From positions 310,001 through 374,000 of the forward strand of contig NZ_CP087599.1 of the NCBI RefSeq assembly GCF_020990385.1: 64,000 bases of DNA. Reading direction: 5' to 3'. Positions 2,723 to 27,545 of this stretch are shown here, one piece after another. Each line of letters opens with the position of its first letter. Within the stretch, counting starts at the first letter, position 1. Source of the stretch: Paracoccus sp. MA. Lineage in GTDB: Bacteria > Pseudomonadota > Alphaproteobacteria > Rhodobacterales > Rhodobacteraceae. The position numbers and the translations under genes were made by a program. The notes under the pieces were generated by a model that had not been told where the DNA came from, ran no database searches, and worked only from the letters and a program-made list of their open reading frames with translations.

Positions 2723-3142
2723 GCGCGGGCTCTTTCCGGCTTGCTCCATGCAGGTTAGCCCCTTGCGGCGGCACCCGCAGGAGGAATGCGGCAGCGGCCA
2801 TTCGCAGCACCTTCCTGGATGACTCCCCTGTCGCAGCACCTGGACGATGTGGCGGGGTGCACTCTGGGGCCCAAAAGCGCGCCAACCAATGACCGGGATC
2901 TTGATCTTCCCCAAGAAGGAAGCTGCCGATGCCTGATCCAGTGACTACGGACGGCCATCCGGGCGTGCCGCGACCTATGACAGCCCGCATATCCGTGATC
3001 GCGACTGTGCCCACACGCGTGAGATCGACCCCGTGTGCGGCACGGGCAGCCCTGGCGTCGATCCGGCTCAATGCCGTTCAGGTCAGGCGGGCGTCGGGGC
3101 CGTCCGTCCGAGCGAACGGTCAACCCGATCGCAGGTCGTGAT
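2723..3142. other. Intergenic stretch with no supportable gene
   Basis: About 420 bases separate the hairpin from the 3' end of the aryl carrier protein gene. Short open frames exist on both strands. One at 2929-3141 has an AAGGAAG-like ribosome site, but its product (rich in Arg, Ala and Pro, no recognisable motif) is not convincing. I see no RNA gene or repeat here. Confidence 0.5.
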
Positions 3143-3391
3143 CTAGGGTCGCCGCGCCTGGATCAGGCGCCACCAGCCCTCGATGCTGGGCTCCTGAAGC
3201 AGTTCCCGCGCGCTGACCGTGATGCCCGCCTGCTTCAGTTCGGCGACCAGCTTCAGCACCGACAGCGAATCCAGCCCCAGGAACAGCAGGTTTTCATCGG
3301 AACCAATCTCCGCCTCGTCGGGGACAAGCGCCTGCACACGCGTTTCCAGCCATGCCCGGCCGAGCGTTTCGATAGATCCGATGTCGTTCAT
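3143..3391 (-). CDS. Stand-alone aryl/peptidyl carrier protein
   Basis: This 82-residue protein has the phosphopantetheine attachment motif GLDSLSVLKL, with Ser about residue 42, and the usual carrier-protein helices around it. It resembles the aryl carrier domains of siderophore assembly lines (C-terminal part of EntB/VibB, N-terminal part of PchE), here without any fused isochorismatase. It would hold the aryl acid activated by the AMP ligase at 14655-16322 and present it to the first cyclization domain of the synthetase. It is transcribed divergently from the synthetase across about 100 bases. No phosphopantetheinyl transferase gene lies in the window, so loading must depend on one elsewhere. 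Confidence 0.85.
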   Translation of the reverse strand: MNDIGSIETLGRAWLETRVQALVPDEAEIGSDENLLFLGLDSLSVLKLVAELKQAGITVSARELLQEPSIEGWWRLIQARRP

Positions 3392-3443
3392 TTCGATCCC
3401 GTCCTGTCCTGCGCGGCCAAGCCTTTCCTTGACACCGCCATTA

Positions 3444-3462
3444 GTTGAGTATTTTTATCAAC
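3444..3462. promoter_or_regulatory. AT-rich dyad between the divergent carrier protein and NRPS genes
   Basis: GTTGA (3444-3448) and TCAAC (3458-3462) form a 5-bp dyad around an AT-rich centre in an otherwise GC-rich region. The position between two divergent siderophore genes suits a shared operator. No classical Fur box is readable, so the regulator is unknown (an AraC-type or iron-responsive protein is possible). Confidence 0.35.
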
Positions 3463-3490
3463 CACTATCGCCAGACGCAAGGGGATGAAC

Positions 3491-5542
3491 ATGGACCTGA
3501 CCGCCATGCAGGCAGCCTATTGGACCGGGCGCGATTGGAAGGGGCCGGGTGGCGGCGTATCCGCGCATCTGCATACCGAATTCCAGCCGCAAGGGCTGGA
3601 GCCGCAGCGGCTGGACCGCGCGGTGCGCGGGCTGTTCCGCCGGCACCCCATGCTGCGGCTGCGGGTCACGGCCGCAGGCCAGCAGGTGATCCAGCCGCTG
3701 GACGACCGCCACGCCCTGCGGGTCGAGGATCTGCGGGCGCTGGCGCCGGATCAGGCGCAGGCGCGGCTGGCCGCGACGCGGCGGCGGATGACGCATCAGC
3801 GGCTGGACATCGCCTCGGGCGAGGCGGCGGAATTCCTGCTCAGCCTGCTGCCGGGCGGCGAACAGCGACTGCATGTCGACCTGGACATGATCGCGGCCGA
3901 TCCCTCCTGCTTCGGGCTGGTCATGGACGACCTGGCCCGGCTTTACGAGGATCCGGCCGGGATCGCTGCGGTCGAGGAACCCGAAGGCTGCTATTTCGAC
4001 TACCTGGCCCGGCTGCCCCCCGACCCGGCGGCCGAGGCGGCGGATCGGGACTGGTGGCGCGCCCGGCTGTGCGACATGCCGCCGGCGCCCTCGCTGCCGC
4101 TGCGCGACGGGGCGGCCGCGCCGGAAACCACCCGGATCTCGGCCCTGCTGCCGCCGGCGCAGGCCGCGGCGCTGCGGGGGCTTGCGCGTGAATTGCGGGT
4201 CACGCAGACCGCGCTTTACCTGGCGGTCTTTGCCGCCGTGCTGGCGCGGGCGACGGGCGACCGGGCCTTTCGCCTGACGCTGCCGGGCTTCTTTCGCGCC
4301 CCGGTGATGCGCGGCGCCTCACGGCTGGTCGGGGATTTCACCAATATCCTGCCGCTCGGCCTGCGGGTCGGGCCCGAGGCCACGCTGGCCGGACTGGCGC
4401 GCGAGGCAGGGCGCGAGATCGCCGAGGCGCTGTCGCATCAGGCCTGCCCCGGCGTCGCCGTGCTGCGCGAGATGTCACGCGGCGGCCAGGGCGTGGAATC
4501 CGCGCCGGTGGTCTTTACCAGCGGGCTCGACCTGGACGGGGCGCAGCGCCAGCTGCTGAGCCCCCGCGTCGGCCGGCTGTTCGGGCGACTGGTCTGGAGC
4601 GTCTCGCAGGCGCCGCAGGTTGCGCTGGACGTGCAGGTCGCATCGCTGGCCGAGGGCGTGCTGCTGAACTGGGACCTGCGGCTTGACGCGCTGCCCGGCG
4701 ACTGGGTCCGCACCGGTTTCGATGCCTGCCACGCGGCGCTGTGCCGGCTGGCCGATGCGCCCGATCTGGCGGCGGCGCCGCTGTCGGACTGGCTGCCGGC
4801 ACCGATGCGGATGCGGCGGCTGGGCGAGCTGCAAAAGGCCTATCTGCTGGGCCGCGAGGCCGAGCTGCCGCTGGGCCGCACCGCCATGCAGGAATATCGC
4901 TGCTATCGCGGCCCGCTGGATGCCGAAGCCCTGGCGCTTCGGGCCAAGGCGCTGATCGAGCGGCACGAGGCGCTGCGCTGCCGGCTCGACCCTGCCCATT
5001 CCGCGCTGCGCGTGCTGGACGAAGCCGAGCCGCCGCTGGAACGGATCGATCTTTCGGGACTGGCCGTCGATGAGGCCGAGGCGCAGCTCTCTGCCCTGCA
5101 GGACGAATTCGCCCGCGCACCGCTGCCGCTGGACGGGTTGCTGTGGCGGCTGGTGCTGGTGCAATTGCCCCGGCCCCGGGAACAGGCTTTGCTGGTCAAG
5201 ATGGACGCGCTGGCGCTGGACGGCGCCGGGATCGCGCAGGTGATCGCCGAACTGCTGGCGCCCGGGTTGCCGCCGGCCTCCGTCCTGCCCGACCCGCCGC
5301 CCGAACAATCCGACCGCGCCGCCGATGCCGACTGGTGGCGCGCGCGCCTGGCCGGGGTCGAGGGGCCGCCGCGCCTGCCCTGGCGGCAACCGCCAGAGGG
5401 CATCGACCGCCCGCGCTGGCGCCGCGACAGCCGCCGCATCCCGCGCGATCAGCTGGCGCGCCTGGCCCGGCTGGCGGCGGCGCGGAAACTGACCCGCAAC
5501 AGCATCGCCATGGCCGTGGTGCTGGAGGTGCTGGCGCGCTAG
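3491..5542 (+). CDS. Siderophore NRPS, N-terminal part (Cy1 and half of Cy2), ends at an amber codon
   Basis: The ATG at 3491 is preferred over the one at 3485 because AAGGGG sits six bases before it. The first cyclization domain opens with LTAMQAAYWTGRD and has a DMIAADPSC core. The second opens near 4810 with LQKAYLLGRE and has a DALALDGAG core. Both keep the two aspartates of the DxxxxDxxS cyclization motif, but the final Ser reads Cys and Gly. The frame ends at TAG 5540-5542 after VLEVLAR, in the middle of the second domain. The same frame carries on immediately with the rest of that domain. Tandem cyclization domains occur in VibF of vibriobactin, where condensation and ring closure are split between them. 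Confidence 0.85.
   Translation: MDLTAMQAAYWTGRDWKGPGGGVSAHLHTEFQPQGLEPQRLDRAVRGLFRRHPMLRLRVTAAGQQVIQPLDDRHALRVEDLRALAPDQAQARLAATRRRMTHQRLDIASGEAAEFLLSLLPGGEQRLHVDLDMIAADPSCFGLVMDDLARLYEDPAGIAAVEEPEGCYFDYLARLPPDPAAEAADRDWWRARLCDMPPAPSLPLRDGAAAPETTRISALLPPAQAAALRGLARELRVTQTALYLAVFAAVLARATGDRAFRLTLPGFFRAPVMRGASRLVGDFTNILPLGLRVGPEATLAGLAREAGREIAEALSHQACPGVAVLREMSRGGQGVESAPVVFTSGLDLDGAQRQLLSPRVGRLFGRLVWSVSQAPQVALDVQVASLAEGVLLNWDLRLDALPGDWVRTGFDACHAALCRLADAPDLAAAPLSDWLPAPMRMRRLGELQKAYLLGREAELPLGRTAMQEYRCYRGPLDAEALALRAKALIERHEALRCRLDPAHSALRVLDEAEPPLERIDLSGLAVDEAEAQLSALQDEFARAPLPLDGLLWRLVLVQLPRPREQALLVKMDALALDGAGIAQVIAELLAPGLPPASVLPDPPPEQSDRAADADWWRARLAGVEGPPRLPWRQPPEGIDRPRWRRDSRRIPRDQLARLARLAAARKLTRNSIAMAVVLEVLAR
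5540..5542 (+). other. In-frame amber codon interrupting the NRPS
   Basis: The TAG follows codons for VLEVLAR. Downstream codons in the same frame (TPDLAPCVAVPV and on) resume cyclization-domain sequence with no gap. Related domains often carry Trp after ARG in this segment, so a single TGG-to-TAG change would explain it. There is no frameshift or deletion. A sequencing error cannot be excluded. Confidence 0.8.
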
Positions 5543-8500
5543 ACCCCGGACCTTGCACCCTGCGTCGCGGTGCCGGTGGCGCCACCGCCGGGCGGGGCGC
5601 TGGCCAACCGCTCGTCCTTCATCGCCGTCGACTATCGCGCCGACCGGGGCAGCTTCCTGGACCATGCCCGCCGGCTGCAGGAGGACCTGCTGGAGGGCAT
5701 GGCGCATCCCGGTCTGTCGGGGGTCGGCCTCAGCCGGCTGCTGCTGGCGCAGAACGGCGGCCGGATCGCGCTGCCGGTGGTGCTGACCAACGGCATGGGC
5801 TGGGACCGGGTGCCCGCCGATGCCGGGCTGCGGCTGGTGGACGGGCTGGTGCAGACCCCGCAGGTCGCGCTGGACCTGCGGCTGTCGCTGGATGCGGACG
5901 GCGCGCTGCTGCTGCAAGCCGATCACGTCGAGCAGGCGCTGGAGCCTGCGGTCGTCGGCGCGTTGCTGGACGCCGCCGCCCGCGCCTTCGCCGCGCTGGC
6001 CGGGCGGGACGAGCTGACCCTGGCCGGCGCCGATTTCCTGCCGCCGCCACCCGCGGCCCCCGCCGGGGCGGAACATGCCGGCCCCGGCCATCTGGAGCGC
6101 ATCGCGGCGCAGTTGTTCGACGGCGATCCCGACCGCACGGCCCTGATCTGCGACACCCGCAGCACCAGCTACGGCGCGCTTGGCCTGCGGGTGCGGCGCG
6201 TGATGGCCGGGCTGGCCGCGCGCGGGCTCGCGCCGGGCGACATGGTCGCGATCTGCCTGCCGCGCGGGCCCGAGCATCTGGTGCTGACGCTGGCCTGCGC
6301 CTTCTCGGGGCTGGTCTGGGTGCCCATCGACGCCGCCGCGCCGCCCGAGCGGCGCGACTACCTGCTGCGCAATTCCGCGCCGCGGCTGGTCGTGGCCGCA
6401 ACCGACCTGCCCGGCTGGCCGCTGGCCTCGCCCCGCACCCTCGAAGCGCATGACCCGGCCCCGATCCCGCAGGGACTGGCCGCGCTGTCCCGTTCCGAAG
6501 CGGCCGCCTATTACCTTTACACCTCGGGCACCACCGGGCGGCCGAAATGCGTGGTGCTGAACAATCACGCCACCGCGAATGTCATCGGCCATACGCTGGA
6601 TGCCTGGGGGATCGGTGCCGAGGACGCGGTGATCTCGGTCACGCCGCTGCATCACGACATGTCGGTCTTCGACCTGTTCGGCACCCTGGCCGCCGGCGCG
6701 CGGCTGGTGATGCCCGCGCCGGCCGAGGAAAAGGACGCCCTTGCCTGGAACCGTCTGGTGCGCGACCACGGCGTGACCGTCTGGTGCTCGGTCCCCGCCA
6801 TCGTCGAGATGCTGCTGGCCTGCGCGCCGGATGACGGGCTGGCCTCGCTGCGGCTGGTGGCGCAGGGCGGCGACTACATCAAGCCGGCGGTGATCGACCG
6901 GCTGCGCCGGCTGCGGCCCGATGCGGCGCTGTGGTCGCTGGGCGGCCCGACCGAGACCACGATCTGGAGCATCTGGCACCGGATCGGCCCCGAGGACGAC
7001 CGCATCATCCCCTATGGCCGCGCCCTGCCCGGCAACCGCTACCTGCTGCTGAACCCGCAGGGCGAACCCTGCCCCGAGGGCGTGGCCGGCCGCATCCACA
7101 CCACGGGCGTGAACCTGGCGCTCGGCTATCTGCGCGACGGCGCGCTGGAACAGACCGACTTCACCGAGGTCGGTGGCATCCGCGCCTTTCGCAGCGGCGA
7201 CCTGGGGCGGCTGCGCGGCGACGGCACCATCCTGTTCGACAGCCGGGTGAACGGCTATGTCAAGGTGCGCGGCGTGCGCATCTCGCTGGCCGATGTCGAG
7301 GCCGAGCTGGCCGCCCATCCCGCCGTCGCGCAGGCCCTGGTCGTGGACATTCCCGACGCGCGGGGCGAGACGGTGCTGGCCGCGCTGGTCGCCGGTCGCG
7401 ACCTGCCCGAACCGGCCGCGCTGCGCGCCTTCCTGCGCGAACGGCTGCCGCAATCGCACCTTCCCGACCGCATCCTTGCAATCCCGGCGCTGCCGCTGTC
7501 GGCCAACGGCAAGCCCGACCGCCGCCGCGCGCGCCAGATCGCGGGCCAGCCCGGCCCCGAGCCAACCGCACCGCCAGAAGCGCCAGGTGCCGAGCCGGCG
7601 GACGCGCTGACGGGCCTGATCCTCGCCGCCTTCCGCGAGGCGCTCGGTGCGCCCGGAATGGGGCCCGAGGACGATTTCTTCGACCATGGCGGGCATTCTC
7701 TGGTCGCGACCCGGATCATCGGCAGGCTGCAGGCCGAGCATGGCATCGCCCTGCGCTTCACCGACATCTTCCGCCATCCGACCGCCCTCGCGCTGGCCGG
7801 GATCGCCACCCGCAGCGCGCCGGCCGCGCCGATGCCCGCAGCCGGGGACGACGCGGCCGAACCCCAGGCGGCGCCCCTGTCGCTGGCGCAGCAATCGCTG
7901 TGGAAGGCCTATGCCGCCTTCGGCTATGGCGGCATCTTCAATCTGCCCTTTGCCCTGCGTTTCCCGACCCCGGTGGACGAAGCGGTCTTCGGGCTGGCCT
8001 TCGGCGACCTGATCCGCCGCCATCCCGTGCTGCGCAGCCATTTCCGCGAGGAAAACGGCCAGCCGCTGCAAGACGTGGTCCCGGTCGAGCGGCTGGGCGA
8101 TTATCGCTGGTTCTGGATCAGCGCCGAGGCGGGCGAGGCAAACCGCCGGACCGAGGCCGGCCATGTCTTCGACCTTGCCCGCGAATTGCCGCTGCGGCTG
8201 CGCTTCTTCCGCGAGGGGGACGAGCAGGTGCTGTCCATGCTGTTCCACCATATCGTGCTGGACGAATGGTCGCTGAACCTGCTGATGGACCAGCTTGGCC
8301 ACGCCTATCGCCAGCGCGCGGCGGGGCTGGCGCCGGATTGGCCCGACCAGCCGCCGGGCTTCCACCGCTTCGCCGCCGCGCAAAGGGCGGCGGATACGGA
8401 CCGCGCGCATCTGGACTACTGGCTGGATCACCTGCGCGGCGCACCGCGTGCCCGCCCGATCCTCGGCGCTGCGCCGGGCGGGCAGGACCCGCAGGGCGGC

Positions 8501-9205
8501 TGGACCCGGATCGACCTGCCGGCCGAGGTCGCACGCGGGCTTTACGCCACGGCGCGGCGCAACGCGGCCTCGCTTTTCGCGACGGCCTATGCGGCGATCG
8601 GCGCGGCGCTGGGGCGGCTGGGCGGCATCGGCGACCTGGTGATCGGCACCTCGGCCTCGGGGCGCAACGATCCGGCCTGGTTCGACACGGTGGGCTATTT
8701 CACCACCATGACCGCGCATCGGCTGGCGCTGGGGGCGCAGGACACGCCCGCCGCGCTGATCGCGCAGGTCCGCGACCGCATCGCCCGCTCGCTGCCGCAT
8801 TCCGAGGTCCCGCTGGACCTGGTGGGCGAGGCGCTGACCGGCAATCCCGTCACCCGGCTGGACGAGATGTTCGAGGTCTTCATCCAGATCCACGCCCGGA
8901 ACCGGATGAACGGCGCCATCGCGCTGATGGACGGCAGCCGCGTCGAATACCGGCAGATCGACCCGGACAAGGCGGAATCGCTGCTGGGCCTGCAATTCGA
9001 GATCGTCGAGGACGTGGCGGACGAGACCGCCGGCCTGCGCATCATGCTAAGCCATCGCGCCGACCGCTACGGCCCCGCCGAAATCCGCCGGATCACCCAA
9101 GCGGTCGAGGCGATGCTGGCCCGCTTTGCACAGCCGCAGGACGATCAGCCGCTGGACGCCGGCGAGGCAAGCCCCAGATGCGCGGCCAGCGTCTCTCCGG
9201 CATAG
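5543..9205 (+). pseudogene. Siderophore NRPS, C-terminal part (half Cy2, A, PCP, C) after the amber codon
   Basis: This continues the frame of the upstream half without loss. The order is the rest of Cy2 to about 6050; an adenylation domain about 6110-7540 with YTSGTTGRPK (near 6514), GGPTETTIW, FRSGDLGRL and NGKPDRR; a carrier domain with DDFFDHGGHSL near 7680; and a condensation domain with HHIVLDEWS near 8250. There is no thioesterase, so release probably uses the last condensation domain to transfer the chain to an amine, as in spermidine- or norspermidine-based siderophores. The adenylation pocket reads DMFCAGLIWK in the GrsA scheme, which I cannot assign with confidence (Cys, Thr or Ser possible). 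Without suppression this half has no good start of its own (only a GTG at 5570 with no ribosome site). Confidence 0.82.
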
Positions 9206-10386
9206 GCGTGGCGAAAGCGCCGCGCCTCGGCCAGCGCCGGGATCAGTTCGGACAGCAGCAGGTCCAGCGATTCCCCGCTGCCGCCCGGCAGGGCGATGAA
9301 GCCGTCCATGGCCCCGGCATCCGACCAGGCGGCGATCTCGGCCAAGGCCTCGGCCGGGGTGCCGACGAAGGTCCAGTGCCCGGAATTGGCGACCTCGGGG
9401 CGCAGCAGCAGGTCGCGCAGGGGCGGGCTTTCCTGCCGGATCAGCCGCTGCAGCAGCCCCGAATGGGTGCGGCTGCGCAGCGCCGCGTCCCCGGCCGGCA
9501 GGTCCGCGGGGGTCAGGGGGCGGTCCTCGGGCCAGTCGCCCAGGTCGCGGCCGACCAGCGCCCCCAGCTTGGCCCGCAGCGCGGCAGGATCGCGGCGGGC
9601 CTGCGCCTCGCGGAACATCTCCTGCGCCTCGCTCCGGCTGGGCGCCAGATAGGCGTGAAAGCCCGGCAGCAGCCGCGGCGCGTCGTCGCGGCCGGCGGCG
9701 CGGGCCCGGCGCTGCAGGTCCGACCGCAGCTCTTGCCCCGCGGCAGGGTCGGGGACCGAGGCGAAGATCGCATCGGCGACCGAGGCGGCGAAGCCGCGGC
9801 CCTCGGCCGAGGCGCCGGCCTGGAACAGCGCGACGCGCGCGGGATGGCGCGGCACGTTCAGCGGCCCCTCGACCTGATAGAAGGCGCCGCAATGGTCGAT
9901 GGCCGCCAGCCCTTCGGCACCGTGGCTGTCCCAAAGGCGGCGCACGACATCGGTGAACTCGGCCGCGCGGGCGTAACGCTCGGCCGCCGAGGGCATGGCG
10001 GCAAGGCCGAAATTCCGCTCTCCATCCAGCGCGGTGACGATGTTCCAGCCCGCCCGGCCGTTGCTGAGCCAGTTCAGCGTCTGCAATTGCCGCGCGGCGA
10101 CATAGGGCGGATTGAAACTGGTCGAGACCGTCGTGACCAGCCCGATCCGCCGCGTCGCCCCGGCCACGGCGGTCAGCACCAGCGTCGGATCCAGCGCCGC
10201 CCGCGCGATGCGCGGCCCCGCCCCCTTCGGGTCGATGTAAAGGCTGTCTGGCTTGAAGACGAAGTCCAGATGCGCGGCCTCGGCCCGGACCGCCAGCGCG
10301 CAATCCAGCGCCAGCGCCTGGTCCGGGGCCGGCGGCGGCCCCCAGGTCCGGGCAAGGGCCAGACCGATATGCAGCATCCGCGCCAT
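9145..10386 (-). CDS. NtaA/DszA-family FMN-dependent monooxygenase (luciferase-like)
   Basis: This 413-residue flavin-dependent monooxygenase has the family blocks IGLVTTVSTSFNPPYVAARQ and NWLSNGRAGWNIVTAL. The start at 10386 has GAGGAG just upstream. Relatives include NtaA and EmoA, which use reduced FMN and oxygen to break metal-chelating aminopolycarboxylates, and DszA. Here it lies between a siderophore synthetase and the matching importer, so it may modify the siderophore or cleave it to release iron (inference). Its last 61 bases overlap the 3' end of the NRPS on the other strand, and it shares an 88-base divergent region with the importer operon. A flavin reductase partner is not in the window. 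Confidence 0.8.
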   Translation of the reverse strand: MARMLHIGLALARTWGPPPAPDQALALDCALAVRAEAAHLDFVFKPDSLYIDPKGAGPRIARAALDPTLVLTAVAGATRRIGLVTTVSTSFNPPYVAARQLQTLNWLSNGRAGWNIVTALDGERNFGLAAMPSAAERYARAAEFTDVVRRLWDSHGAEGLAAIDHCGAFYQVEGPLNVPRHPARVALFQAGASAEGRGFAASVADAIFASVPDPAAGQELRSDLQRRARAAGRDDAPRLLPGFHAYLAPSRSEAQEMFREAQARRDPAALRAKLGALVGRDLGDWPEDRPLTPADLPAGDAALRSRTHSGLLQRLIRQESPPLRDLLLRPEVANSGHWTFVGTPAEALAEIAAWSDAGAMDGFIALPGGSGESLDLLLSELIPALAEARRFRHAYAGETLAAHLGLASPASSG

Positions 10387-10474
10387 CGCATGCTCCTCGT
10401 GAAATTGCGTCTGGATAATTCCGAGTGTTTTACTTTACGAACCGGAGGACGCGATTGCCAGCCGGAGTGAAAAC
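10387..10474. promoter_or_regulatory. Divergent promoter region, monooxygenase / importer operon
   Basis: This 88-base gap holds an AT-rich core (ATAATTCCGAGTG, then TTTTACTTTACGAA) between the monooxygenase start and the GTG start of the ABC ATPase. It must carry promoters for both directions. I cannot identify a named operator in it. Confidence 0.4.
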
Positions 10475-11254
10475 GTGATCCGCATCCAGGGCCTGACGGT
10501 CGGCTATGGCCGAAAGCCGGTCATTCGCGGGCTGGACGCCTGTTTTGCGCCGGGGCGCTTCACCGCGCTGGTCGGGCCGAACGGCTGCGGCAAATCGACG
10601 CTGCTGAAGGCGGTGATGGGCTTTCTGCGTCCCCAGGCCGGCCGCGTCACGCTGGACGGCGTGCCCATGGCGCGCATCCCGCGCCGGGCGCTGGCACGGC
10701 GCATCGCCTGGCTGCCGCAAGAGAACCATTGCCCCGACTACCTGACCCTGGGCGAGCTGGTCGAGATGGGCGGCCATGCCCGGCAGGGGCTTTTCGCCGG
10801 GCCGGACGACCGCGACCGGCTGCTGTTTCGCGAGGCGCTGCGCATCGTCGGGCTGCAGGATCAGGCGCATCTGCCGGTCAACGCCCTGTCCGGCGGCCAG
10901 CGGCAGCGCGCCTTCATCGCCATGGTGCTGGCGCAGGACACGCCCGTCGTGCTGATGGATGAGCCGGTGAACCACCTGGACGTCACCTATCAATATGCCC
11001 TGCTGGGGCTGGTGCGCGACCTGACGCGGCGCCATGGCCGCACGGTGGTCTCGGTCCTGCACGACCTGAACCTGGCGCTGAGCTTCGCCGACGAGGTGGT
11101 GATGATGTCGGGGGGAGAGGCCCGCGCCTCGGGGCCGGTGGCCGAGGTCCTGAACGCCGCGAACCTGCGCGAGGTCTTCGACCTAGACGCGCAGGTCATC
11201 CGCCACGAGGGGCGGCGGATCTGCCTGCCCGCCCTGCCGGAGCCCAGCGCATGA
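10475..11254 (+). CDS. Ferric-siderophore ABC transporter ATPase (FecE/FepC type)
   Basis: This 259-residue ATPase has Walker A GPNGCGKSTLLK, signature LSGGQRQRAF and Walker B VVLMDEPVNHLD. It starts with GTG at 10475, with GGAG about ten bases upstream. The family powers import of ferric siderophores, haem or cobalamin through FecCD-type permeases on the cytoplasmic face of the inner membrane. The stop overlaps the ATG of the first permease (ATGA), so the four importer genes form one translationally coupled operon. Adjacent siderophore biosynthesis and receptor genes argue that the substrate is the ferric phenolate siderophore rather than cobalamin. Confidence 0.9.
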   Translation: MIRIQGLTVGYGRKPVIRGLDACFAPGRFTALVGPNGCGKSTLLKAVMGFLRPQAGRVTLDGVPMARIPRRALARRIAWLPQENHCPDYLTLGELVEMGGHARQGLFAGPDDRDRLLFREALRIVGLQDQAHLPVNALSGGQRQRAFIAMVLAQDTPVVLMDEPVNHLDVTYQYALLGLVRDLTRRHGRTVVSVLHDLNLALSFADEVVMMSGGEARASGPVAEVLNAANLREVFDLDAQVIRHEGRRICLPALPEPSA

Positions 11255-12249
11255 GGCGCGGCTTTCCGGTCCTTGCGGCGCTGGCGCTGGCGCTTTGCCT
11301 GCTGCTGGCCCTGTCGGCGGGCGAAAGCTGGATCCCGCCCTCGGGGATATGGGCCGCGCTGGCCCGCTTTGACGAGACGCGGCAGGCGGATGTCATCGTG
11401 ATCTACCAGCGCCTGCCGCGCGCGCTGATCGCCATGCTGGCCGGGGCGGCGCTGTCCATGTCGGGGGCGGTCCTGCAGGGCGTGCTGCGCAATCCCCTGG
11501 CCTCGCCCTCGCTGGTCGGGATCAATGCCGGGGCGGCGCTGGCGGTGGTGGCCGGCGCCTTCCTGCTGGGGCTGGAGCCGCGGGCGCAGGGATCGGCCGC
11601 GCTGGCGGGCGGCGGCCTGGGCTTTCTGGCCAGCCTCGGCGTCGCGCGGCTGGCCGGCCATGCGCATGATCCGCGCGGGCTGGCGCTGATCCTGTCCGGC
11701 GCGATCGTCTCGATGTTCCTGGGCGGGCTGACGCAGGCGCTGCTGCTGTCCGATCCGGCGCTGCGGCAGGATTACCTGGGCTGGCTGGGCGGCAATGTCA
11801 GCCATGTCCATGCCGAAAGGCTGGCGGATTTCTGGGGGCTGGCGGCGCTTGGCATGGCGGCGATGCTGCTGCTGGCCCGCCGGCTGTCGCTGCTGGCGCT
11901 GGGGGCCGAGAAGGCCGCCTCGCTGGGCATCGACGTGGCGCGCGCGCAACTTCTGGCGCTGGGGGCGGCGGTGCTGGCCTCGGCCTCGGCTGTGGCGATC
12001 TGCGGACCGCTGGGGTTTCTGGGACTGGTGGTGCCGCATCTGGTGCGGCCGCTGACCGGCGCGCGCTTCGGGGCGCTGCTGCCGGGCTGCGCCCTGGCCG
12101 GGGCCTGCCTGTGCCTGCTGGCCGACCTGATCGCGCGCATGGCGCTTGCCCCCCTGGCGCTGCATACCGGCGTCGTGCTGGAGCTTCTGGGCGGCATCGC
12201 CTTCATGCTGATGGTGCGCCGCTTCTACCTGCGCGGAGCCGAGGCATGA
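11251..12249 (+). CDS. Ferric-siderophore ABC permease 1 (FecCD family)
   Basis: This 332-residue polytopic permease of the BtuC/FecCD family has family features such as RLPRALIAMLAGAALSMSGA, followed by LRNPLASPSLVGI, and CGPLGFLGLVVPHLVRP near the end. About nine to ten membrane segments can be followed. The start overlaps the ATPase stop by four bases, and its own stop overlaps the start of the second permease (ATGA at 12246-12249). With the second permease it should form the heterodimeric channel that receives the ferric siderophore from the periplasmic binding protein. Confidence 0.9.
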   Translation: MRRGFPVLAALALALCLLLALSAGESWIPPSGIWAALARFDETRQADVIVIYQRLPRALIAMLAGAALSMSGAVLQGVLRNPLASPSLVGINAGAALAVVAGAFLLGLEPRAQGSAALAGGGLGFLASLGVARLAGHAHDPRGLALILSGAIVSMFLGGLTQALLLSDPALRQDYLGWLGGNVSHVHAERLADFWGLAALGMAAMLLLARRLSLLALGAEKAASLGIDVARAQLLALGAAVLASASAVAICGPLGFLGLVVPHLVRPLTGARFGALLPGCALAGACLCLLADLIARMALAPLALHTGVVLELLGGIAFMLMVRRFYLRGAEA

Positions 12250-13280
12250 GCAGTCGCGCCCTGGACGGCCGCCGCGTGCTGCGCCTGCCGGGCGGGATGC
12301 AGATCGGACTGGCGAATCTGGCCGCCGCGCTGGCCCTGACGCTGGCGAGCCTGGGGCTGGGGGCGGTTTCGCTGTCCTGGGGCGAGACGCGGCTGGACCT
12401 GCTGGCGCCGCTGGATGCGGATCAGGCTTTCGCGCTTTACCAGGTGCGGCTGCCGCGCCTGCTTCTGGGCTTCATGGCGGGCTGGTCGGTGGCGCTGGCC
12501 GGCGCCATGCTGCAATCGCTGGCCCGCAATCCGCTGGCCGATCCGGGCCTGCTGGGCCTGTCGCAGGGCGCGATGGTGGCGATCATGGTCCTGACCGTGC
12601 TGGCCCCCGGCCTGCCGCCGGCATGGCTGCCGGGCGCGGCGCTGCTGGGCGGCCTTGCGGTCGCGGCGCTGCTGCTGGCGCTGGTCCGCGGCCATGCCGG
12701 CGGGCTGGCCGTGCTGCTGATGGGCATTGCGCTGGAATCGACGCTTTCGGCGGTGACGGCGGTGCTGGTCCTCTATACCCCGCCCGAGACCTCGCATGCG
12801 CTGGCCGGCTGGATGGCCGGGTCGCTGGCGCTGGCCGACTGGCCGCGGGTGACGATGCTGGCGCCATGGTTCGCCGCCAGCCCGATCGCCATCCTGCTGC
12901 TTGGCCGGGCGCTGCGGCTGATCGACCTCGGCGCGCCCATGGCGATGGCGCTGGGGCTGGATGCGGCACGGACGCGGGTGGCGGTCCTGATCGTCGCGGT
13001 GCTGCTGAGCTCGGCCGCCTTGACGGCGGTGGGGCCGCTGATGTTCCTCGGGGTCATGGCGCCGCAGCTGGCGGCGGCGCTGTCGCCCGCCTCGGGCCGG
13101 GCGCGTCTGGTGCTGGCGGCGCTGACCGGCGGGCTGCTGGTCACGGCGGCCGACATGCTGGCGCGCAACGCCGGCACCGATATCGGCCTGCCGGTCGGGC
13201 TGGTCCTGGTGACGCTGGGCGCGCCGCTTTTCGTGCTGGCGATGCGGATGCGGCTGTTCCTGCGGATGAGTTCAAGCTGA
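12246..13280 (+). CDS. Ferric-siderophore ABC permease 2 (FecCD family)
   Basis: This 344-residue FecCD-family permease starts at the ATG that overlaps the stop of permease 1. It shows the same signature blocks: VRLPRLLLGFMAGWSVALAG, LARNPLADPGLLGLSQGA and VGPLMFLGVMAPQLA. It forms the second half of the transmembrane heterodimer. The stop is followed after 13 bases by the binding-protein gene. Nothing suggests damage, in contrast to the synthetase gene upstream. Confidence 0.9.
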   Translation: MSSRALDGRRVLRLPGGMQIGLANLAAALALTLASLGLGAVSLSWGETRLDLLAPLDADQAFALYQVRLPRLLLGFMAGWSVALAGAMLQSLARNPLADPGLLGLSQGAMVAIMVLTVLAPGLPPAWLPGAALLGGLAVAALLLALVRGHAGGLAVLLMGIALESTLSAVTAVLVLYTPPETSHALAGWMAGSLALADWPRVTMLAPWFAASPIAILLLGRALRLIDLGAPMAMALGLDAARTRVAVLIVAVLLSSAALTAVGPLMFLGVMAPQLAAALSPASGRARLVLAALTGGLLVTAADMLARNAGTDIGLPVGLVLVTLGAPLFVLAMRMRLFLRMSSS

Positions 13281-13293
13281 AAAGGAGGACGAG

Positions 13294-14271
13294 ATGCGCC
13301 GATTGCTGATGACCGCCCTTGTGGCGCTGGCCGCCATCGGGACGGGACAGGCCGCCGAGGTGACCGACGATACGGGGCGGCAGGTGCGGATCCCCGACGA
13401 CCCGCAGCGCGTCGTGGCGCTGCACGAGCCGGTGCTGGCGGTGCCGCTGATCGAGCTGGGCGTGCCGGTCGTCGGAATCTACGGCCGGGGCGACGACGGC
13501 TCCAGCCTGACCGCGGGGGATTTCCTGCACGAGATGCTGGGACGTTCCAAGGATGCCGACCCGATCCCCGGGATCGGCCCGGTGGGCAGCATCAACCTGG
13601 AAAAGCTGCGCGCGCTGCGGCCCGACCTGATCATCGGCACCGATTACGATGCCGGCAAGGCCAAGGCCCTGTCCCAGGCGGCGCCGGTCTATCTGCAGAA
13701 CAGCAGCGCCGCGACCGCCCACGGCTTCAGCGTGCAGGAGGAGCTGGCGCGCGTCCTGCATCGCGAGGACCGCTTTCGCGAACTCAGGACCGCCTATCAG
13801 GCCCGGCTGGACGGATTGCGCGGCCGGTTTCCCGACCGCCTGCCCAAGGCGCCGGGGGAAAGGACCTATCTCATCGTCATGCTGACCGACCAGGCCAATG
13901 TCGTGGCCGGCATGTCCGGCGCGGTGCAGGCCCTGGAGGACCTGGGCTATCACCGGGCCGAGATCGCCGGCGAGGGCTCGACCCGGCAGTCGCGCTCGAT
14001 GCTGATCCTGCCCATCGGGGCCGAAAGCCTGGCCGGCCTGAACCCCGACCTGCTGCTGGTGATGACCAGCTTCGCCGCCCCGGCGCGGGACGAGGCGGCC
14101 GCGCGCGCGGCGCTGGACCGGCTTTCGCCCGGCTGGGACCGTTTCATGGCCCCGGCGCGCGAGGGACGGATGGTGTTCCTGGATTCCGCCAGGGTCACCA
14201 GCCCTTCAGTCGCCAGCGCCATGCACACGCTCGACGCGGTCGAGGGCTGGCTGGCCGGGGGGCCGCGCTGA
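13294..14271 (+). CDS. Periplasmic ferric-siderophore binding protein (FecB/FepB type)
   Basis: This 325-residue protein has a clear signal peptide (MRRLLMTALVALAAIGTGQA) and AAGGAGG eight bases before the ATG. The mature part starts with EVTDDTGRQVRIPDDPQRVV, the typical opening of class III (helical-backbone) binding proteins. Phrases such as LRALRPDLIIGTDY and LNPDLLLVMTSF match the family. It would carry the ferric siderophore from the TonB-dependent receptor to the FecCD permeases. Its last 66 bases overlap the 3' end of pchB on the opposite strand. Confidence 0.9.
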   Translation: MRRLLMTALVALAAIGTGQAAEVTDDTGRQVRIPDDPQRVVALHEPVLAVPLIELGVPVVGIYGRGDDGSSLTAGDFLHEMLGRSKDADPIPGIGPVGSINLEKLRALRPDLIIGTDYDAGKAKALSQAAPVYLQNSSAATAHGFSVQEELARVLHREDRFRELRTAYQARLDGLRGRFPDRLPKAPGERTYLIVMLTDQANVVAGMSGAVQALEDLGYHRAEIAGEGSTRQSRSMLILPIGAESLAGLNPDLLLVMTSFAAPARDEAAARAALDRLSPGWDRFMAPAREGRMVFLDSARVTSPSVASAMHTLDAVEGWLAGGPR

Positions 14272-14658
14272 CGGCGAGGGCGCCGGGGCCGACGACCGGC
14301 GGTCTGCGGCCGGCCGCTCTGCGCGGCAGGCCCGCCAATGCGCCACCTGCTGGCGGATGAACCATTCCGCCACCTGCCCGAACAGGGGACCGATGAAATC
14401 GGGGGCGAGGCCCGCCTCGGCGGCCCAGGCCGCGCGTTCGTCCAGCATCTGCCGCACCCGCTCCGGCGCGGGGATCGAGGCGATGTCGGGCTTGAAATCC
14501 GCCGCGGCCAGCACATAGCGCAGCCGCAGCCCCAGCAGCCCGACGATGCGGGCGTCGATCAGGTCGATGCCGCGCCGGACGTCGCCCAGCCCCGCCACCG
14601 CTTCCGGCGGGACCAGGTCCGGCGCCAGATCCTCGGGCACCACGACGGTCGGGCTCAT
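14206..14658 (-). CDS. pchB: Isochorismate-pyruvate lyase (salicylate-forming)
   Basis: This 150-residue AroQ-fold protein removes pyruvate from isochorismate to give salicylate. Compared with Pseudomonas PchB, the active-site residues are all present: Arg in DVRRGIDLID, Arg in GLRLRYV, Lys in ADFKPD and Gln in RQQVAHW. The family core IPAPERV is intact. The C-terminal 40 residues are an Ala/Pro/Arg-rich extension, coded largely where the gene overlaps the binding-protein gene on the other strand. Its ATG overlaps the ligase stop (ATGA), so ligase and lyase form one operon. No isochorismate synthase is in the window; one must be supplied from elsewhere. Confidence 0.88.
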   Translation of the reverse strand: MSPTVVVPEDLAPDLVPPEAVAGLGDVRRGIDLIDARIVGLLGLRLRYVLAAADFKPDIASIPAPERVRQMLDERAAWAAEAGLAPDFIGPLFGQVAEWFIRQQVAHWRACRAERPAADRRSSAPAPSPSARPPGQPALDRVERVHGAGD

Positions 14659-16322
14659 GCACGCTCCTCCTGCCGGGCGGCGACGGGATCAGAAAAATGC
14701 GCCTTGCACAGTTGCTCGCGCAGCTGGCGCTTGTTGACCTTGCCGACGCCGGTTTGCGGAAAGCGATCCAGCACGATCACCTCGTCGGGGATCTTGAAGG
14801 CGGCAAGCCCGGCCTCGGCCAGATGGCGGCGCAACGCCCCCGGCCGGGGCGTGGTGCCCGGCGCGGCCAGCACGAAGGCGCAAAGCCTTTCGCCCATCAG
14901 CGCATCGGGCCGCCCCACCACCGCCGCATCCAGCACCGAGGCATGGGCGACCAGCAGATCCTCGACCTCGTCCACGCCGATCTTTTCGCCACCCCGGTTC
15001 ACCTGGTCCTTGGCCCGCCCCTCGACGGTGATCGCGCCGTCGGCATCGCGCCGCGCGATGTCGCCCGAGCGATAGAAGCCGTCGGCGGTGAAGGCCTGGG
15101 CATTGTGCCCGGCCATGTCGTAATAGCCGCGGATCGTATAGGGGCCGCGGACCTCCAGCTCGCCCGGCTCGCCGATGGCGGCCTCGCGCCCATCCGGGCG
15201 GATGATGCGCAGCTCGTCCCAGGGCGACATGGGCCGGCCCTGGGTGTTCACGATACGCTCCTCGCTGTCGGTCAGCGCGGTGAAGCAGACCAGCCCCTCG
15301 GCCATGCCGAAGACCTGCTGCAGCTGGCAGCCCAGCTCCGGCCGGATACGCCGGGCGCTGGACGGGGTCAGCTTGGCGCCGCCGACCTGCAGCAGTTGCA
15401 GCGACGACAGGTCCGCCCCCAGCCCGGCCTGCGCATCCAGCCACAGCAGCGCCAGCGGCGGCACCAGCGCGGTCATCGTGACGCGATGGCGGGCGATCAG
15501 GTCGAAGCAGATCCCAGCCTCGGGCTCGGGTGCGATGACCACCGTGCCCCCGGCCTGCAGCGTGCCCAGAAAACCCGGGCAGGCCATCGGGAAGTTGTGC
15601 ATCATCGGCAGCACGCACAGATAGCGCGTATCGCCGTCCAGCCCGCTGGCCGCCACCGCCATGCGGATGTTGTAAAGATATTCCATGTGCCGGCGCGGGA
15701 TCAGCTTGGGCACGCCGGTCGTCCCGCCCGAGATCTGGAAACAGGCCACGTCCTCGGCATTGGGACCGGCCGGCAGCGGGAGATCGGGACGGAACAGGCT
15801 GTCGAAGGGCGTCGCGTCCCGGCCGTCGCCAAGCACCACCACATGCCGGACCGAGGGAACCTTGTCCTGCACCCGCCGGGCCAGCGCCACCATGTCATAC
15901 CCCCCGGGCTCCTGCGCCGTCAGGATCGCGCGGGCGCCGGTGAAATTGGCAAACTGGCCAAGCTCAAGGTCGCGATGCCCGGGCAAGGCCAGCACCGGCA
16001 CGACGCCCAGCCGGCAAAGCGCGAAGAACAGCGTGACGAACTCCCCGCAATTGGGGAGTTGCACCACCACCCGGTCGCCGCGAACCAGTCCCAGCGCCGA
16101 AAGCCCGCCCGCCAATGCCAGCGCATCGCGGTGCAACCGGTCGTAACCGATCTGCCGCGCACCGTCGATCAGGGCGATCCGCCGACCCAGCCGCCCGGCT
16201 TGCCGCGCCAGAAGGTCGAAGAATGTCTCGTATCGCCAGATCCCGGCCTCGCGGTAACGGTCAGCAACGTCCCGGGGCCAGAACGGGCAGCGGGCCTGCC
16301 AGTCCAGAGCGTGATCTGCCAC
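14655..16322 (-). CDS. Aryl-acid (salicylate or 2,3-dihydroxybenzoate) AMP ligase
   Basis: This 555-residue stand-alone adenylation enzyme of the EntE/DhbE/PchD/YbtE group activates an aryl acid and loads it on a carrier protein. A GTG start at 16322 with AGGAG six bases before it gives the family-length N-terminus (DHALDWQARCPFWP); the frame is open further upstream but no better start is seen. Motifs: ISGGTTGVPKLIPR, HNFPMACPG, FGMAEGLVCFT, GDIARRDADG and GVGKVNKRQLREQL. From memory of the DhbE aryl-acid pocket, Phe and Cys in HNFPMAC lean to salicylate while Val in EGLV leans to dihydroxybenzoate. The coupled pchB gene supports salicylate. Confidence 0.87.
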   Translation of the reverse strand: MADHALDWQARCPFWPRDVADRYREAGIWRYETFFDLLARQAGRLGRRIALIDGARQIGYDRLHRDALALAGGLSALGLVRGDRVVVQLPNCGEFVTLFFALCRLGVVPVLALPGHRDLELGQFANFTGARAILTAQEPGGYDMVALARRVQDKVPSVRHVVVLGDGRDATPFDSLFRPDLPLPAGPNAEDVACFQISGGTTGVPKLIPRRHMEYLYNIRMAVAASGLDGDTRYLCVLPMMHNFPMACPGFLGTLQAGGTVVIAPEPEAGICFDLIARHRVTMTALVPPLALLWLDAQAGLGADLSSLQLLQVGGAKLTPSSARRIRPELGCQLQQVFGMAEGLVCFTALTDSEERIVNTQGRPMSPWDELRIIRPDGREAAIGEPGELEVRGPYTIRGYYDMAGHNAQAFTADGFYRSGDIARRDADGAITVEGRAKDQVNRGGEKIGVDEVEDLLVAHASVLDAAVVGRPDALMGERLCAFVLAAPGTTPRPGALRRHLAEAGLAAFKIPDEVIVLDRFPQTGVGKVNKRQLREQLCKAHFSDPVAARQEERA

Positions 16323-16680
16323 AGCAATCTCCTTTCGCAATCCGCTGGCGAAGGGTGGGCAAATCTTCCTTGATAGGGAGGACCATGTCCGCTCCGCCGA
16401 AATCCCGACCGTGACGACTGGCGGAGGGCTGAACGCACGGTATCTTATCTTTTTTATCGGATTACTGTCGCACAACTGCAGATGGGTGTAAAGTGATCCT
16501 GCGGCGCAGGTTGTGGCGCAGGGGTCACGCCCTGGATTCCCAGGCGCCGCCGCCCTTGCCCCAAGCCTTGTCAATCGGTTAACCCGGCGCTGTCGCTCGG
16601 CGGTTTCCCGCCGGGGGAACGGAATCGCAAATGGCAGCCAGCATTCGCCAGCCCGCAGTAGATCTGGATAGGGTTTGGAG
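16323..16680. promoter_or_regulatory. Divergent regulatory region, aryl-AMP ligase / TonB receptor
   Basis: This 358-base gap contains the promoters of the ligase-pchB operon and the receptor gene. An AT-rich island at about 16440-16465 (TATCTTATCTTTTTTATCGG) is the likeliest core. An imperfect dyad pairs CACAACTGC (16471-16479) with GCAGGTTGTG (16506-16515). No consensus Fur box is visible. No gene was seen here. Confidence 0.45.
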
Positions 16681-18759
16681 ATGAATGGACATAAAATCCC
16701 GGTGCTGCTTGGCACGGTCGCCATGCTGGCATTGGCCACGGCCCCCGCGCTGGCTCAGGACAATCAGGGCATGGCCGAGGCGGTGCGGCTGGACGAAATC
16801 GTCCTGACCGGCGAAAAGCAGGCGCGCAGCATCAAGGATACCGCCTCTTCGGTGGCCGTCCTGACCACGCGCGACCTTGAGGAGAGCGGCGGGCAGGACA
16901 GCACCGCCGATGCGGCGACGGGCATCGCCAACGTGACCTATGTCGCCTCGGGCGGCCAAGGCGGCGCCCCCACCATCCGCGGGCAGGACAGCGAGGGTCC
17001 GAATTCCGGCGCGGTGGCCTTCTTCGGCGGCACGGCCCCGCGGCTGGCCTTCAATCTGGACGGGCATTACCTGGGCTATAACGAGATCGTCTGGGGCAGC
17101 CAGGCGCTTTGGGACGTCGAGTCGATCGAGGTCTTTCGCGGCCCGCAGACCGCGACCCAAGGCGCGAACTCGATCGCCGGGGCGATCATCGTCAAGACCA
17201 AGGATCCGACTTTCCAGCCCGAGGGCGCCGCGCAGCTGGAATATGGCAGCCACAACCGCCGCCGCGCCAGCCTGATGGCCTCGGGGCCCTTGTCCGAGGA
17301 TCTGGCCGGGCGCATCACCGTCGACTACTGGGCGCGCGACAATTACATCGACTATACCAACCCGGATTTCGCCGTCGGCTCGACCGACCAGGACCATGAA
17401 TCCCGCACCATCCGCGCCAAGCTGCTGTGGCAGCCGCAGGAGATCCCGGGGCTGGAGGGCAAGCTGACCTTCTCGCACAGCCTGACCAACCGGCCGAACT
17501 GGGAAGCCGCGACCGAGCCCTATGAGGATCTGGAAAGCGCCACCGCATCGAATCCCAGCTGGCGGCTGCGCACGAACACCACCATCCTGGATGTCAGCTA
17601 TGAATTCGGCAATGGCTGGACGCTGTTCAACCAGCTGCAATATTCCGACATCTGGATCAAACGCTCGACCGAGCCGGTCGACTCGGGCACGGCGACCCTG
17701 GATCAGGACGTGACCTCGAACGAAACGCGCGTGACCTTCGGCTCGCCCGAGGACCGGATCAGCGGCGTGGCGGGACTGTTCGTCTCGCGCACCGATTCGG
17801 ACGAGCTTCTGGATTACCGCGGCACCACCACCTATGACGACCGCAAGGACAGCCTGGGGATATTCGTCGAAACCACCTGGCGCCTTGCCGACCGCTGGAG
17901 CCTGACCGGCGGGCTGCGCTATCAGCGCGACGACATCACCCGGCGCGGCGTGTCGAGCTTTACCCCGAACGTGCTGGATTACGACGAAAGCTTCGACGCC
18001 TGGCTGCCCAGGATCGCGCTGGCCTATGACCTGGACGAATCGAGCCGCATCGGCGCCATGATCAGCAAGGGCTACAACCCGGGCGGGGTGACGCTGAACC
18101 TGACCAGCGGGGAATACGTGCCCTTTGACGCGGAGACCTCGTGGAACTACGAGATCTTCGGCCGCACCCGGCTGCTGGACGACCGGCTGGAGCTGACCGG
18201 CAACCTGTTCTACACCCAGCTCCATGATGCGCAGCGCTATGTCGTGACCAGCTTGCCCGAGAACATCGGCAGTTCGATCACCGTCAATGCCGAGCGCGCC
18301 AAGTCCTATGGCCTGGAACTGGGGATGGACTATCTGGTACGCGACAATCTGCGGGTCAAGGCGGGGCTGGGCCTGCTGCATACCGAGATCAGCCGCTTCA
18401 CCAGCGCGGAGGCGGATTACCAGGGCCACCGCTTCGGCCGGTCCCCGGACTATACGCTTTCGCTGGCGGCCGATTGGGACATCACCCCGGAATGGCGGCT
18501 CAGCGGCCAGCTGCGCCACACCGACGGCTATTATTCCGACGACAACGAGGACCGCGACACCTGGGTCGATTCCTATACCGTGGCCAATGCCCGGCTGACC
18601 TGGCAACCGCGCGAGAACCTGCAGGCCTTCGCCTATGTCAACAACCTGTTCGACGACCGCTCGGTGACCTATCTGCGGGCCAGCCGCTCGATCGGCGGCT
18701 TCGAGGCCACCGTGGTCGAGCCGCGCGAGGTGGGTATCGGCCTGAAGGTGACCTTCTGA
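16681..18759 (+). CDS. TonB-dependent ferric-siderophore receptor
   Basis: This 692-residue outer-membrane receptor starts at the ATG 16681; an in-frame TTG six bases upstream is less likely. It has a signal peptide (cleavage near APALAQD), a TonB box DEIVLTG, a plug domain with TIRGQDSEGP and VEVFRGPQ-type sequence (IEVFRGPQTATQGANSIAGA), then a long beta-barrel region rich in aromatic strand ends. The C-terminus is KVTF, ending in the expected Phe. It probably imports the ferric form of the siderophore encoded by this locus, or a xenosiderophore if the synthetase is dead. It is followed by a good terminator. Confidence 0.92.
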   Translation: MNGHKIPVLLGTVAMLALATAPALAQDNQGMAEAVRLDEIVLTGEKQARSIKDTASSVAVLTTRDLEESGGQDSTADAATGIANVTYVASGGQGGAPTIRGQDSEGPNSGAVAFFGGTAPRLAFNLDGHYLGYNEIVWGSQALWDVESIEVFRGPQTATQGANSIAGAIIVKTKDPTFQPEGAAQLEYGSHNRRRASLMASGPLSEDLAGRITVDYWARDNYIDYTNPDFAVGSTDQDHESRTIRAKLLWQPQEIPGLEGKLTFSHSLTNRPNWEAATEPYEDLESATASNPSWRLRTNTTILDVSYEFGNGWTLFNQLQYSDIWIKRSTEPVDSGTATLDQDVTSNETRVTFGSPEDRISGVAGLFVSRTDSDELLDYRGTTTYDDRKDSLGIFVETTWRLADRWSLTGGLRYQRDDITRRGVSSFTPNVLDYDESFDAWLPRIALAYDLDESSRIGAMISKGYNPGGVTLNLTSGEYVPFDAETSWNYEIFGRTRLLDDRLELTGNLFYTQLHDAQRYVVTSLPENIGSSITVNAERAKSYGLELGMDYLVRDNLRVKAGLGLLHTEISRFTSAEADYQGHRFGRSPDYTLSLAADWDITPEWRLSGQLRHTDGYYSDDNEDRDTWVDSYTVANARLTWQPRENLQAFAYVNNLFDDRSVTYLRASRSIGGFEATVVEPREVGIGLKVTF

Positions 18760-18871
18760 GGTAAAAGGTCCGGCGAGTTCGACATGGCCCAGGCGCTTCT
18801 GGCCGGCGCCCGGGCCGCACCGCCGGGCCGTCAGGCGCAATTCGACGCGAACGGCAGCGATCCGGACAAGG

Positions 18872-18931: not shown

Positions 18932-19726
18932 TCACCGCCAAGGTGCTGCGGTCAGGAAATCCTTCAGGACGGTGTCGAACCGCGCCGCCGATTCCAGGTT
19001 CACGATGTGCCGCCCCGGCAGGGACAGGTGACGTCCGCCCCGCACCTCTCCGGCGATCGCGGCCAGTTCGGCCGGCGGGCAGACCGGATCGTCAGCCCCG
19101 GAAATCGCCAGCAGCGGATTGGCGATCTGGTGAAGCCGGCCGCGCAGATCCGCCCCGGCAAGCGCCGCGCAGCATCCCGCATAGCCATCGACCGAGGTGG
19201 CGGCGAAGCTGGCCAGGATCGCCGCGACGCTGGCCGGATCGGCCGCACGAAAGCCCGGCGTGAACCAGCGTTCCGCCGTCGCGGGAAGAAGGCTGCCCAA
19301 GCCCCCTGCCCTGACCTCGTCGATGCGGGCGTTCCAGCCTTCGGCGGTGCCGATCCGGGCGGCCGTGGCGCAGAGAACCACGCGCCCCAGCCGCGCCCCG
19401 GCATGGATCGCCAGCCATTGCCCGGTCAGCCCGCCGATGGACAGGCCGCAGAAATGGCTGCGCGCGATCCCCAGCGCGTCCCACAGCGCGATCACGTCGC
19501 CGCCCAGATCGGCCAGCCCGTAGGGCGGCAACGGCGCGCCGGACCGGCCATGGCCGCGGCGGTCATAGCGCAGGATGCGGAAATCCCGGCAAAGGCTTTC
19601 GATCTGGGCGTCCCACATATGCAGGTCGGTGCCCAGTGAATTGCAGAAGGTCAGCCACGGCTTTTCCCCGGCATCGCCGTCGATGCGGTAGTGCAGCCGG
19701 TGGGTGGGCAGGTCCAGGCAGGGCAT
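18932..19726 (-). CDS. pcaD: 3-oxoadipate enol-lactonase
   Basis: This 264-residue alpha/beta hydrolase opens the enol-lactone ring to 3-oxoadipate, the last step before CoA activation in the catechol branch. The nucleophile elbow is GLSIGG. The acid and base lie in SGADDPVCPP and LPGRHIVNLE. The N-terminal WLTFCNSLGTDLHMWD and LRYDRRGHG blocks are typical of PcaD/CatD. It is the last gene of the cat-ben operon, 62 bases after the transporter. It could equally be called catD; the reaction is the same. Confidence 0.88.
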   Translation of the reverse strand: MPCLDLPTHRLHYRIDGDAGEKPWLTFCNSLGTDLHMWDAQIESLCRDFRILRYDRRGHGRSGAPLPPYGLADLGGDVIALWDALGIARSHFCGLSIGGLTGQWLAIHAGARLGRVVLCATAARIGTAEGWNARIDEVRAGGLGSLLPATAERWFTPGFRAADPASVAAILASFAATSVDGYAGCCAALAGADLRGRLHQIANPLLAISGADDPVCPPAELAAIAGEVRGGRHLSLPGRHIVNLESAARFDTVLKDFLTAAPWR

Positions 19727-19788
19727 GGGCGGCCTTTCATGCGAATGCGGCGCGCGGCGAGGGGCCGCGCGCCTTGTTGCAGGGATCG

Positions 19789-21120: not shown

Positions 21121-21181
21121 GTCGTTCCTCCCTTGTTTTTCGCTTGAAAGCCCGGTCAGCCGCTGTCGCCCCCCGCGACGC

Positions 21182-22983: not shown

Positions 22984-23017
22984 GGTCGCCTCCTCCTTGC
23001 GGTTGTGCTGGGACGGA

Positions 23018-24888: not shown

Positions 24889-25000
24889 GAGCTTTCCTCC
24901 CAGGGGATGCGCCTTTCGCGGGCCGGCCCCTGCCAGATGTCGGTGATGGTTGATCGGGTTCGGAAGGGGGCGGCCTGCGGCGGCCGCCCGAGAGCATCGG

Positions 25001-25939: not shown

Positions 25940-26005
25940 GGTTTCTCCTCCTGGATTCGCTTGGAAACTGGGCGGGCAGGCTTCCCCGGACCTGCCCGTT
26001 GGGAC

Positions 26006-26296: not shown

Positions 26297-26298
26297 CG

Positions 26299-27489: not shown

Positions 27490-27545
27490 GACGCCAAATT
27501 GCGGCGGCGGCCCCTTTCTGTCCAACACCATTTGGATTTGAAAGA

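Follow-up and report, generated by a model that had tools for sequence, protein, structure and literature searches.

This locus raises the question of whether a single codon has deprived a Paracoccus strain of one of its siderophores. In the window (the whole stretch of 64,000 nucleotides analysed here, located on the 671,525-base contig C3 of a 4.47 Mb genome in three contigs), an NRPS frame was open from 3491 to 9205, and its sole break was a TAG codon at 5540-5542. We regard it as probable that this TAG is a real, recent nonsense mutation which stops parabactin, while uptake of ferric parabactin and the synthesis of brucebactin and enterobactin are predicted to persist.

The amber codon in the NRPS frame

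The original prediction held that an in-frame TAG at 5540-5542 splits an otherwise continuous NRPS, and that sister genomes should be compared over the site. This comparison bore the interruption out. The NRPS of P. denitrificans DSM 413 formed one frame over the site (1917 codons stop to stop), as did that of the Paracoccus genome G103 (1918 codons), and both carried a sense codon where the window has the amber codon on the forward strand. Based on the open frame, the domain matches and an alignment of the two cyclization domains, the upstream piece (3485..5542, forward strand, 685 aa) comprised the first cyclization domain (Cy1) and the first half of the second (Cy2), and it was open from either start candidate, ATG at 3485 or at 3491. 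The downstream piece (5543..9205, forward strand, 1220 codons) contained the rest of Cy2 followed by A, PCP and C, and ended at the natural stop, TAG at 9203-9205.

The domain order of the NRPS was Cy-Cy-A-PCP-C. In the Pfam search, two Condensation-family stretches were detected in the upstream piece, only the better one being located, while AMP-binding, carrier (PF00550) and, at the end, Condensation (PF00668) domains were detected in the downstream piece. No Pfam match to a thioesterase was obtained in the NRPS, and the protein was closed by the PCP and the terminal condensation domain. Cy1 was placed at residues 4-437 by its match to solved cyclization domains of HMWP2, PchE, EpoB and others, and the same structure-chain search gave no match of Cy2 to a solved Cy domain. 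Pfam and PDB matches, together with the Cy1/Cy2 alignment, showed that two tandem Cy domains precede the single A domain, and D-x4-D, which we take to be the Cy-domain motif, was seen in both Cy1 and Cy2 in this alignment. When Cy1 was aligned with Cy2, the latter from the natural whole relative P0123, the stop fell shortly past the midpoint of Cy2, a position given by alignment and not by structure, in agreement with the predicted location inside the second cyclization domain. Trp had been named as the usual residue at this column, from which a one-base change would suffice. The residue was Trp in 24/24 relatives chosen from 120 listed, and within this codon a single base separated the window from each of G103 and DSM 413.

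The corresponding 20 kb on plasmid 1 of PD1222 served as a control; of its 20 annotated genes, the 2 cut at the edges were omitted. All 18 neighbours matched the window without an internal stop, although one, at just 61% likeness, serves less well as a control, and three were matched over slightly less than full length. Compared to G103 and the Paracoccus genome G078, the window showed no other stops or gaps in either NRPS piece, in the carrier gene or in any of the eight neighbours. No second intact NRPS copy was found in the genome, where the search at 1e-150 gave a single match. With close relatives open over the same site, the gene would be classed as a unitary pseudogene by nonsense mutation, and loss of its product is predicted.

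The siderophore block and the genes kept elsewhere

The NRPS lies in a block (3047..18759) which is shared as one piece with G103 (99.05% identity over 15.7 kb, no gaps, 150 differences). A stand-alone carrier protein (3143..3391, reverse strand, 82 aa; PF00550, 2.4e-10), whose gene was open in each of the three genomes compared, is likely an aryl carrier, putatively for salicylate. The iron-siderophore importer was encoded by four open genes with domain matches on the forward strand, namely the ABC importer ATPase (10475..11254), FecCD-type permease 1 (11251..12249), FecCD-type permease 2 (12111..13280, its real start probably near 12249) and the periplasmic binding protein (13294..14271). 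On the reverse strand, a chorismate-mutase-type protein (14206..14658; PF01817) is likely an isochorismate-pyruvate lyase for salicylate. It was accompanied by an aryl-AMP ligase (14655..16739, reverse strand, domain starting near 16280), likely salicylate-specific, which scored 647 bits against TIGR02275, below the cut-off of 723.55. Unlike the DHB-AMP ligase on another contig, C2, the ligase of the block has Cys at the position of DhbE Ser240, which we assume to be the ligase selectivity site, with Cys there as in salicylate ligases. The TonB-dependent receptor (16675..18759, forward strand) was identified by domain match and was open. The importer, receptor and ligase genes were open throughout, as had been expected. 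Salicylate synthesis had likewise been called intact, which stood for the lyase-like gene in the block, but the isochorismate synthase lies on the other replicon.

Three minor features of the block were also recorded. A TGA-N9-TCA pattern in the AT-rich divergent promoter region (3446..3460, forward strand), presumably resembling a RirA (IRO) box, is well placed but may be a chance match; the pattern is too common in the window (13 matches vs 6.6 expected, a number reached by 4/100 shuffles), and it was set aside as evidence. The tRNA-Arg called by ARAGORN at 16044-16131 lies within the ligase gene and is likely a false call. The luciferase-like monooxygenase gene (9145..10386, reverse strand; PF00296) was open in the window and G103, while 62 bp of it (window 10225-10286) were missing in P. 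denitrificans DSM 413 and HAMBI_2443; it is probably broken in P. denitrificans.

A further set of siderophore genes was found on C2, and its DHB, condensation and EntF-like genes were open. It included an isochorismate synthase scoring above the NCBIfam subfamily cut-off, an open isochorismatase gene, a dehydrogenase placed as EntA, and a DHB-AMP ligase that matched the solved chain 3o82_A with 732.7 bits. A motif match pointed to a carrier-like stretch in the last part of the frame that closes at L204 9606. Beside the DHB genes was a stand-alone condensation protein of a single domain, and these two features suggest that it is VibH-like. An EntF-like protein of 1294 aa contained C, A, carrier and thioesterase domains, its score of 815.8 bits being below the NCBIfam EntF cut-off of 2400. 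P. denitrificans PD1222 is described as producing parabactin, brucebactin and enterobactin, and brucebactin is considered there an intermediate of parabactin (PMC13251462). From the DHB, condensation and EntF-like genes on C2 and the products of PD1222, it is predicted that parabactin is lost while brucebactin and enterobactin are kept. In this way, the proposal that the strain had lost synthesis but kept uptake stood for uptake, its genes being open, but was too strong for synthesis, since siderophore genes are retained on C2 and the predicted loss concerns one product.

Judged by its domain order, by the lyase and ligase site beside it, and by the product known from P. denitrificans, the NRPS of the block most likely serves the salicyl-oxazoline arm of parabactin synthesis. 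The P. denitrificans parabactin pathway has an orthologous block that contains the lyase and the likely salicylate-type ligase and shares 96.5-97.7% DNA identity, but its gene is whole, whereas the window copy carries the TAG and sits on a 671-kb replicon. The vibriobactin synthetase VibF of V. cholerae, acting with VibB/VibE/VibH, is similar in its tandem Cy domains followed by A, carrier and terminal C, and in the separate carrier, aryl ligase and condensation genes. VibF is described as having six domains including two C domains (PMC5577590), in contrast to the interrupted Cy-Cy-A-PCP-C of the window; the six-domain layout including C1 was not found here, the single C domain being located after the PCP. 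In VibF, Cy2 is reported to condense aryl and threonine, Cy1 to cyclize, and the last C domain to transfer to the polyamine (PMC5577590). By analogy, the window NRPS would work like VibF with a layout that is not identical. The cluster would then make the salicyl-threonine oxazoline arm and join it to bis-DHB-spermidine. Translation ending at the TAG would leave Cy1 and half of Cy2, lacking the adenylation, carrier and final condensation domains, and with such a truncated protein, threonine loading and transfer of the arm would fail. Parabactin from neighbours would still be taken up through the intact receptor and importer.

Age of the stop and alternative explanations

Changes on each branch were counted for the window versus G103 with G078 as outgroup and the stop excluded, by simple site counting with small counts. 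On the window branch, the ratio of nonsynonymous to synonymous changes was 7:13 for the NRPS (omega 0.21, binomial P 0.0006) and 3:6 for the part downstream of the stop (P 0.016). The ratios were 4:10 (omega 0.16) for the four importer genes and 8:9 (omega 0.29) for the receptor on the same branch. The NRPS on the own branch of G103 showed 4:2 (omega 0.77), changes so few that the comparison between branches is weak. Purifying selection is still visible in the NRPS on the window branch, which suggests a recent stop; selection acted on the gene along most of this branch, which fits a late stop, a base error or a working split.

A base error in the assembly, or a mutation confined to the sequenced culture, with the gene whole in the wild strain, would account for a single changed base where selection on the gene is otherwise normal. 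However, the 18/18 control genes free of internal stops and the unbroken rest of the block indicate a low local error rate, and this explanation appears unlikely. Still less probable is that the stop is read through, or that the two pieces act as a split enzyme, parabactin being made in both cases. The low nonsynonymous rate in both NRPS pieces agrees with this, and heterodimers of different VibF mutants are reported to restore lost function (PMC5577590). Natural divisions at apparent domain borders also occur in relatives, as Cy-Cy proteins that lack an A domain (P0003 and P0004) and likely as a Cy protein paired with a Cy-A protein (P0014 and P0202, which both bear the name Rhodomicrobium lacus and have longest contigs of equal length), but the cut in the window falls inside Cy2 and not at a domain border. 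P0003 (Advenella sp. S44) and P0004 are proteins of 876 and 957 aa in which no A domain was found by Pfam. For re-initiation, the 16 in-frame starts within 5543-6300 had weak Shine-Dalgarno matches (2-4 of 6), a weak point against it because the candidates for the true start reached 3-4. Readthrough is opposed by the terminator of the NRPS itself, which is also TAG (9203-9205); two block genes end in TAG, those closing at 9205 and 3143. It is also opposed by the tRNA genes, as no CUA anticodon was found among the 44 detected by covariance search of the genome and ARAGORN on all 44 loci, in a survey that was incomplete and missed tRNA-Tyr. Both tRNA-Tyr and tRNA-Ile(GAT) were absent from the list of 44; two pattern searches also missed tRNA-Tyr, and it was not among the 65 tRNA lines of a scan of the examined loci. 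Suppression of the TAG is unlikely. The genome (G000) was 99.99% complete, yet it gave no 16S rRNA match and no tRNA-Tyr, so that ribosomal regions, together with any tRNA genes they contain, may be missing from the sequence searched.

We give very little credence, the least among these explanations, to a true siderophore cheater, a strain which makes no siderophore and uses those of others through the intact receptor and importer. Both are open, with omega of 0.29 and 0.16 on the window branch, and truncated pyoverdine loci with kept receptors are described in Pseudomonas non-producers (PMC5583256). But the enterobactin and brucebactin genes on C2 look complete, so that the strain should still make siderophores. 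The pyoverdine structural non-producers resemble the window in that synthesis is broken and the receptor kept; large regions are missing there, whereas one codon is changed here and other siderophore genes are present (PMC5583256). That a receptor can be kept when siderophore synthesis is lost is already known, and complete Pseudomonas non-producers are described as lacking large regions (PMC5583256). Another comparison is offered by the schF3 disruption in the vibriobactin-like cluster of Serratia plymuthica, reported to abolish all catecholates except enterobactin (PMC7962358). There too the NRPS of a vibriobactin-like cluster is lost and enterobactin kept, but in a laboratory mutant, while the window is a natural sequence (PMC7962358). 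Brucebactin retention is predicted here from the stand-alone condensation gene, whereas the Serratia mutant kept only enterobactin. Taken together, a recent nonsense mutation stopping parabactin is likely an ordinary gene loss and not a complete cheater.

Losses and exchange of the block in relatives

Among the 40 of 282 records listed, window 44-64 kb shared 92-93% identity with plasmid 1 of P. denitrificans and, over 58% of the query, 95.3% with P. pantotrophus. One record at 99% or more fell outside these 40, and the search may omit very near records. As judged from these matches, the strain is a Paracoccus close to both species and not clearly either. The natural whole relative P0123 (1904 aa), representative of a protein cluster of 40 member sequences, was used as the query in a genus-wide search of 125 Paracoccus genomes at a threshold of 1e-150. 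NRPS matches were obtained in 10/125 genomes, six near (87-95%) and four distant (46-56%). The six near-orthologues included 2 whole genes (G078 and G103), 3 broken differently, with the window strain and its 1 TAG among them, and 1 cut by a contig end (G075, P. binzhouensis). In G097, the NRPS matched only to window 7907 and then ran into other sequence inside a 1.5-Mb contig, for which no match was found in the window or in the 40 kb surrounding the P. denitrificans locus. In G143 (P. versutus), the NRPS had large gaps and frame changes and the receptor was in three frames. In the block of P. versutus DSM 582, where NRPS and receptor were both decayed, the counterpart of window 9214-15130 was missing. 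A further allele, P0016 (Paracoccus sp. pheM1), had residues 235-392 joined to 1278 onward, and the shortened form P0126, which represents 23 member sequences, was 89% identical to the window piece. The lesions differ, and the NRPS losses in relatives look independent. The suggested loss at the one-mutation stage fits in that the window strain is one codon from its whole sisters, but the loss is not unique, as other near-orthologues are broken differently. The freshly interrupted siderophore gene is a true observation of an ordinary kind, in a block also broken in relatives. Sister lineages may show later stages of loss, and the natural series (whole, one stop, truncated, decayed including the receptor) offers material for asking whether a costly siderophore yields to cheaper ones.

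Between the window strain and G103, two loci compared elsewhere were 88.1% (EntF) and 92.5% (isochorismatase) identical, vs 99.05% for the block. The left flank of the block was common to G103, DSM 413 and G097, while the surroundings differed in the window, where a racemase gene lies on one side and benzoate genes on the other. The replicon or record carrying the block was 1.5-1.7 Mb in G103, G097 and HAMBI_2443, the last identical to DSM 413 across the 23.66-kb locus, vs 671 kb in the window strain. Over 6.56 kb, the G097 remnant with its left flank shared 99.92% identity with P. denitrificans, and the EntF and isochorismatase loci of G097 were 84-85% identical to those of G078. Recent horizontal exchange of the block looks to be the simplest reading of these comparisons. 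More tentatively, and with somewhat more doubt than belief, the block could be a public-good module passed around in the P. denitrificans group, moving between species and replicons and repeatedly inactivated by differing lesions, whereby strains would drop to the cheaper brucebactin and enterobactin and keep parabactin uptake, with the window strain at the first step.

The second locus for parabactin synthesis is likely this block, which earlier work may already have recorded. A 2021 paper calls the parabactin cluster unidentified (PMC7962358), but in another the assignment of parabactin moieties to NRPSs is credited to a 2014 study (PMC8273931), and a 2024 paper names parabactin, in antiSMASH results, as one of the documented clusters (PMC11537045). 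Among the titles and abstract openings searched, no account of the locus as broken in Paracoccus was found. Genes matching a benzoate/catechol degradation set (window 18935-27531) adjoin the siderophore block. By the right end of the block, a 77-bp stretch (window 18773-18849) is repeated at 437 kb of C3 and in relatives with 77% identity, and it is possibly a mobile-element remnant.
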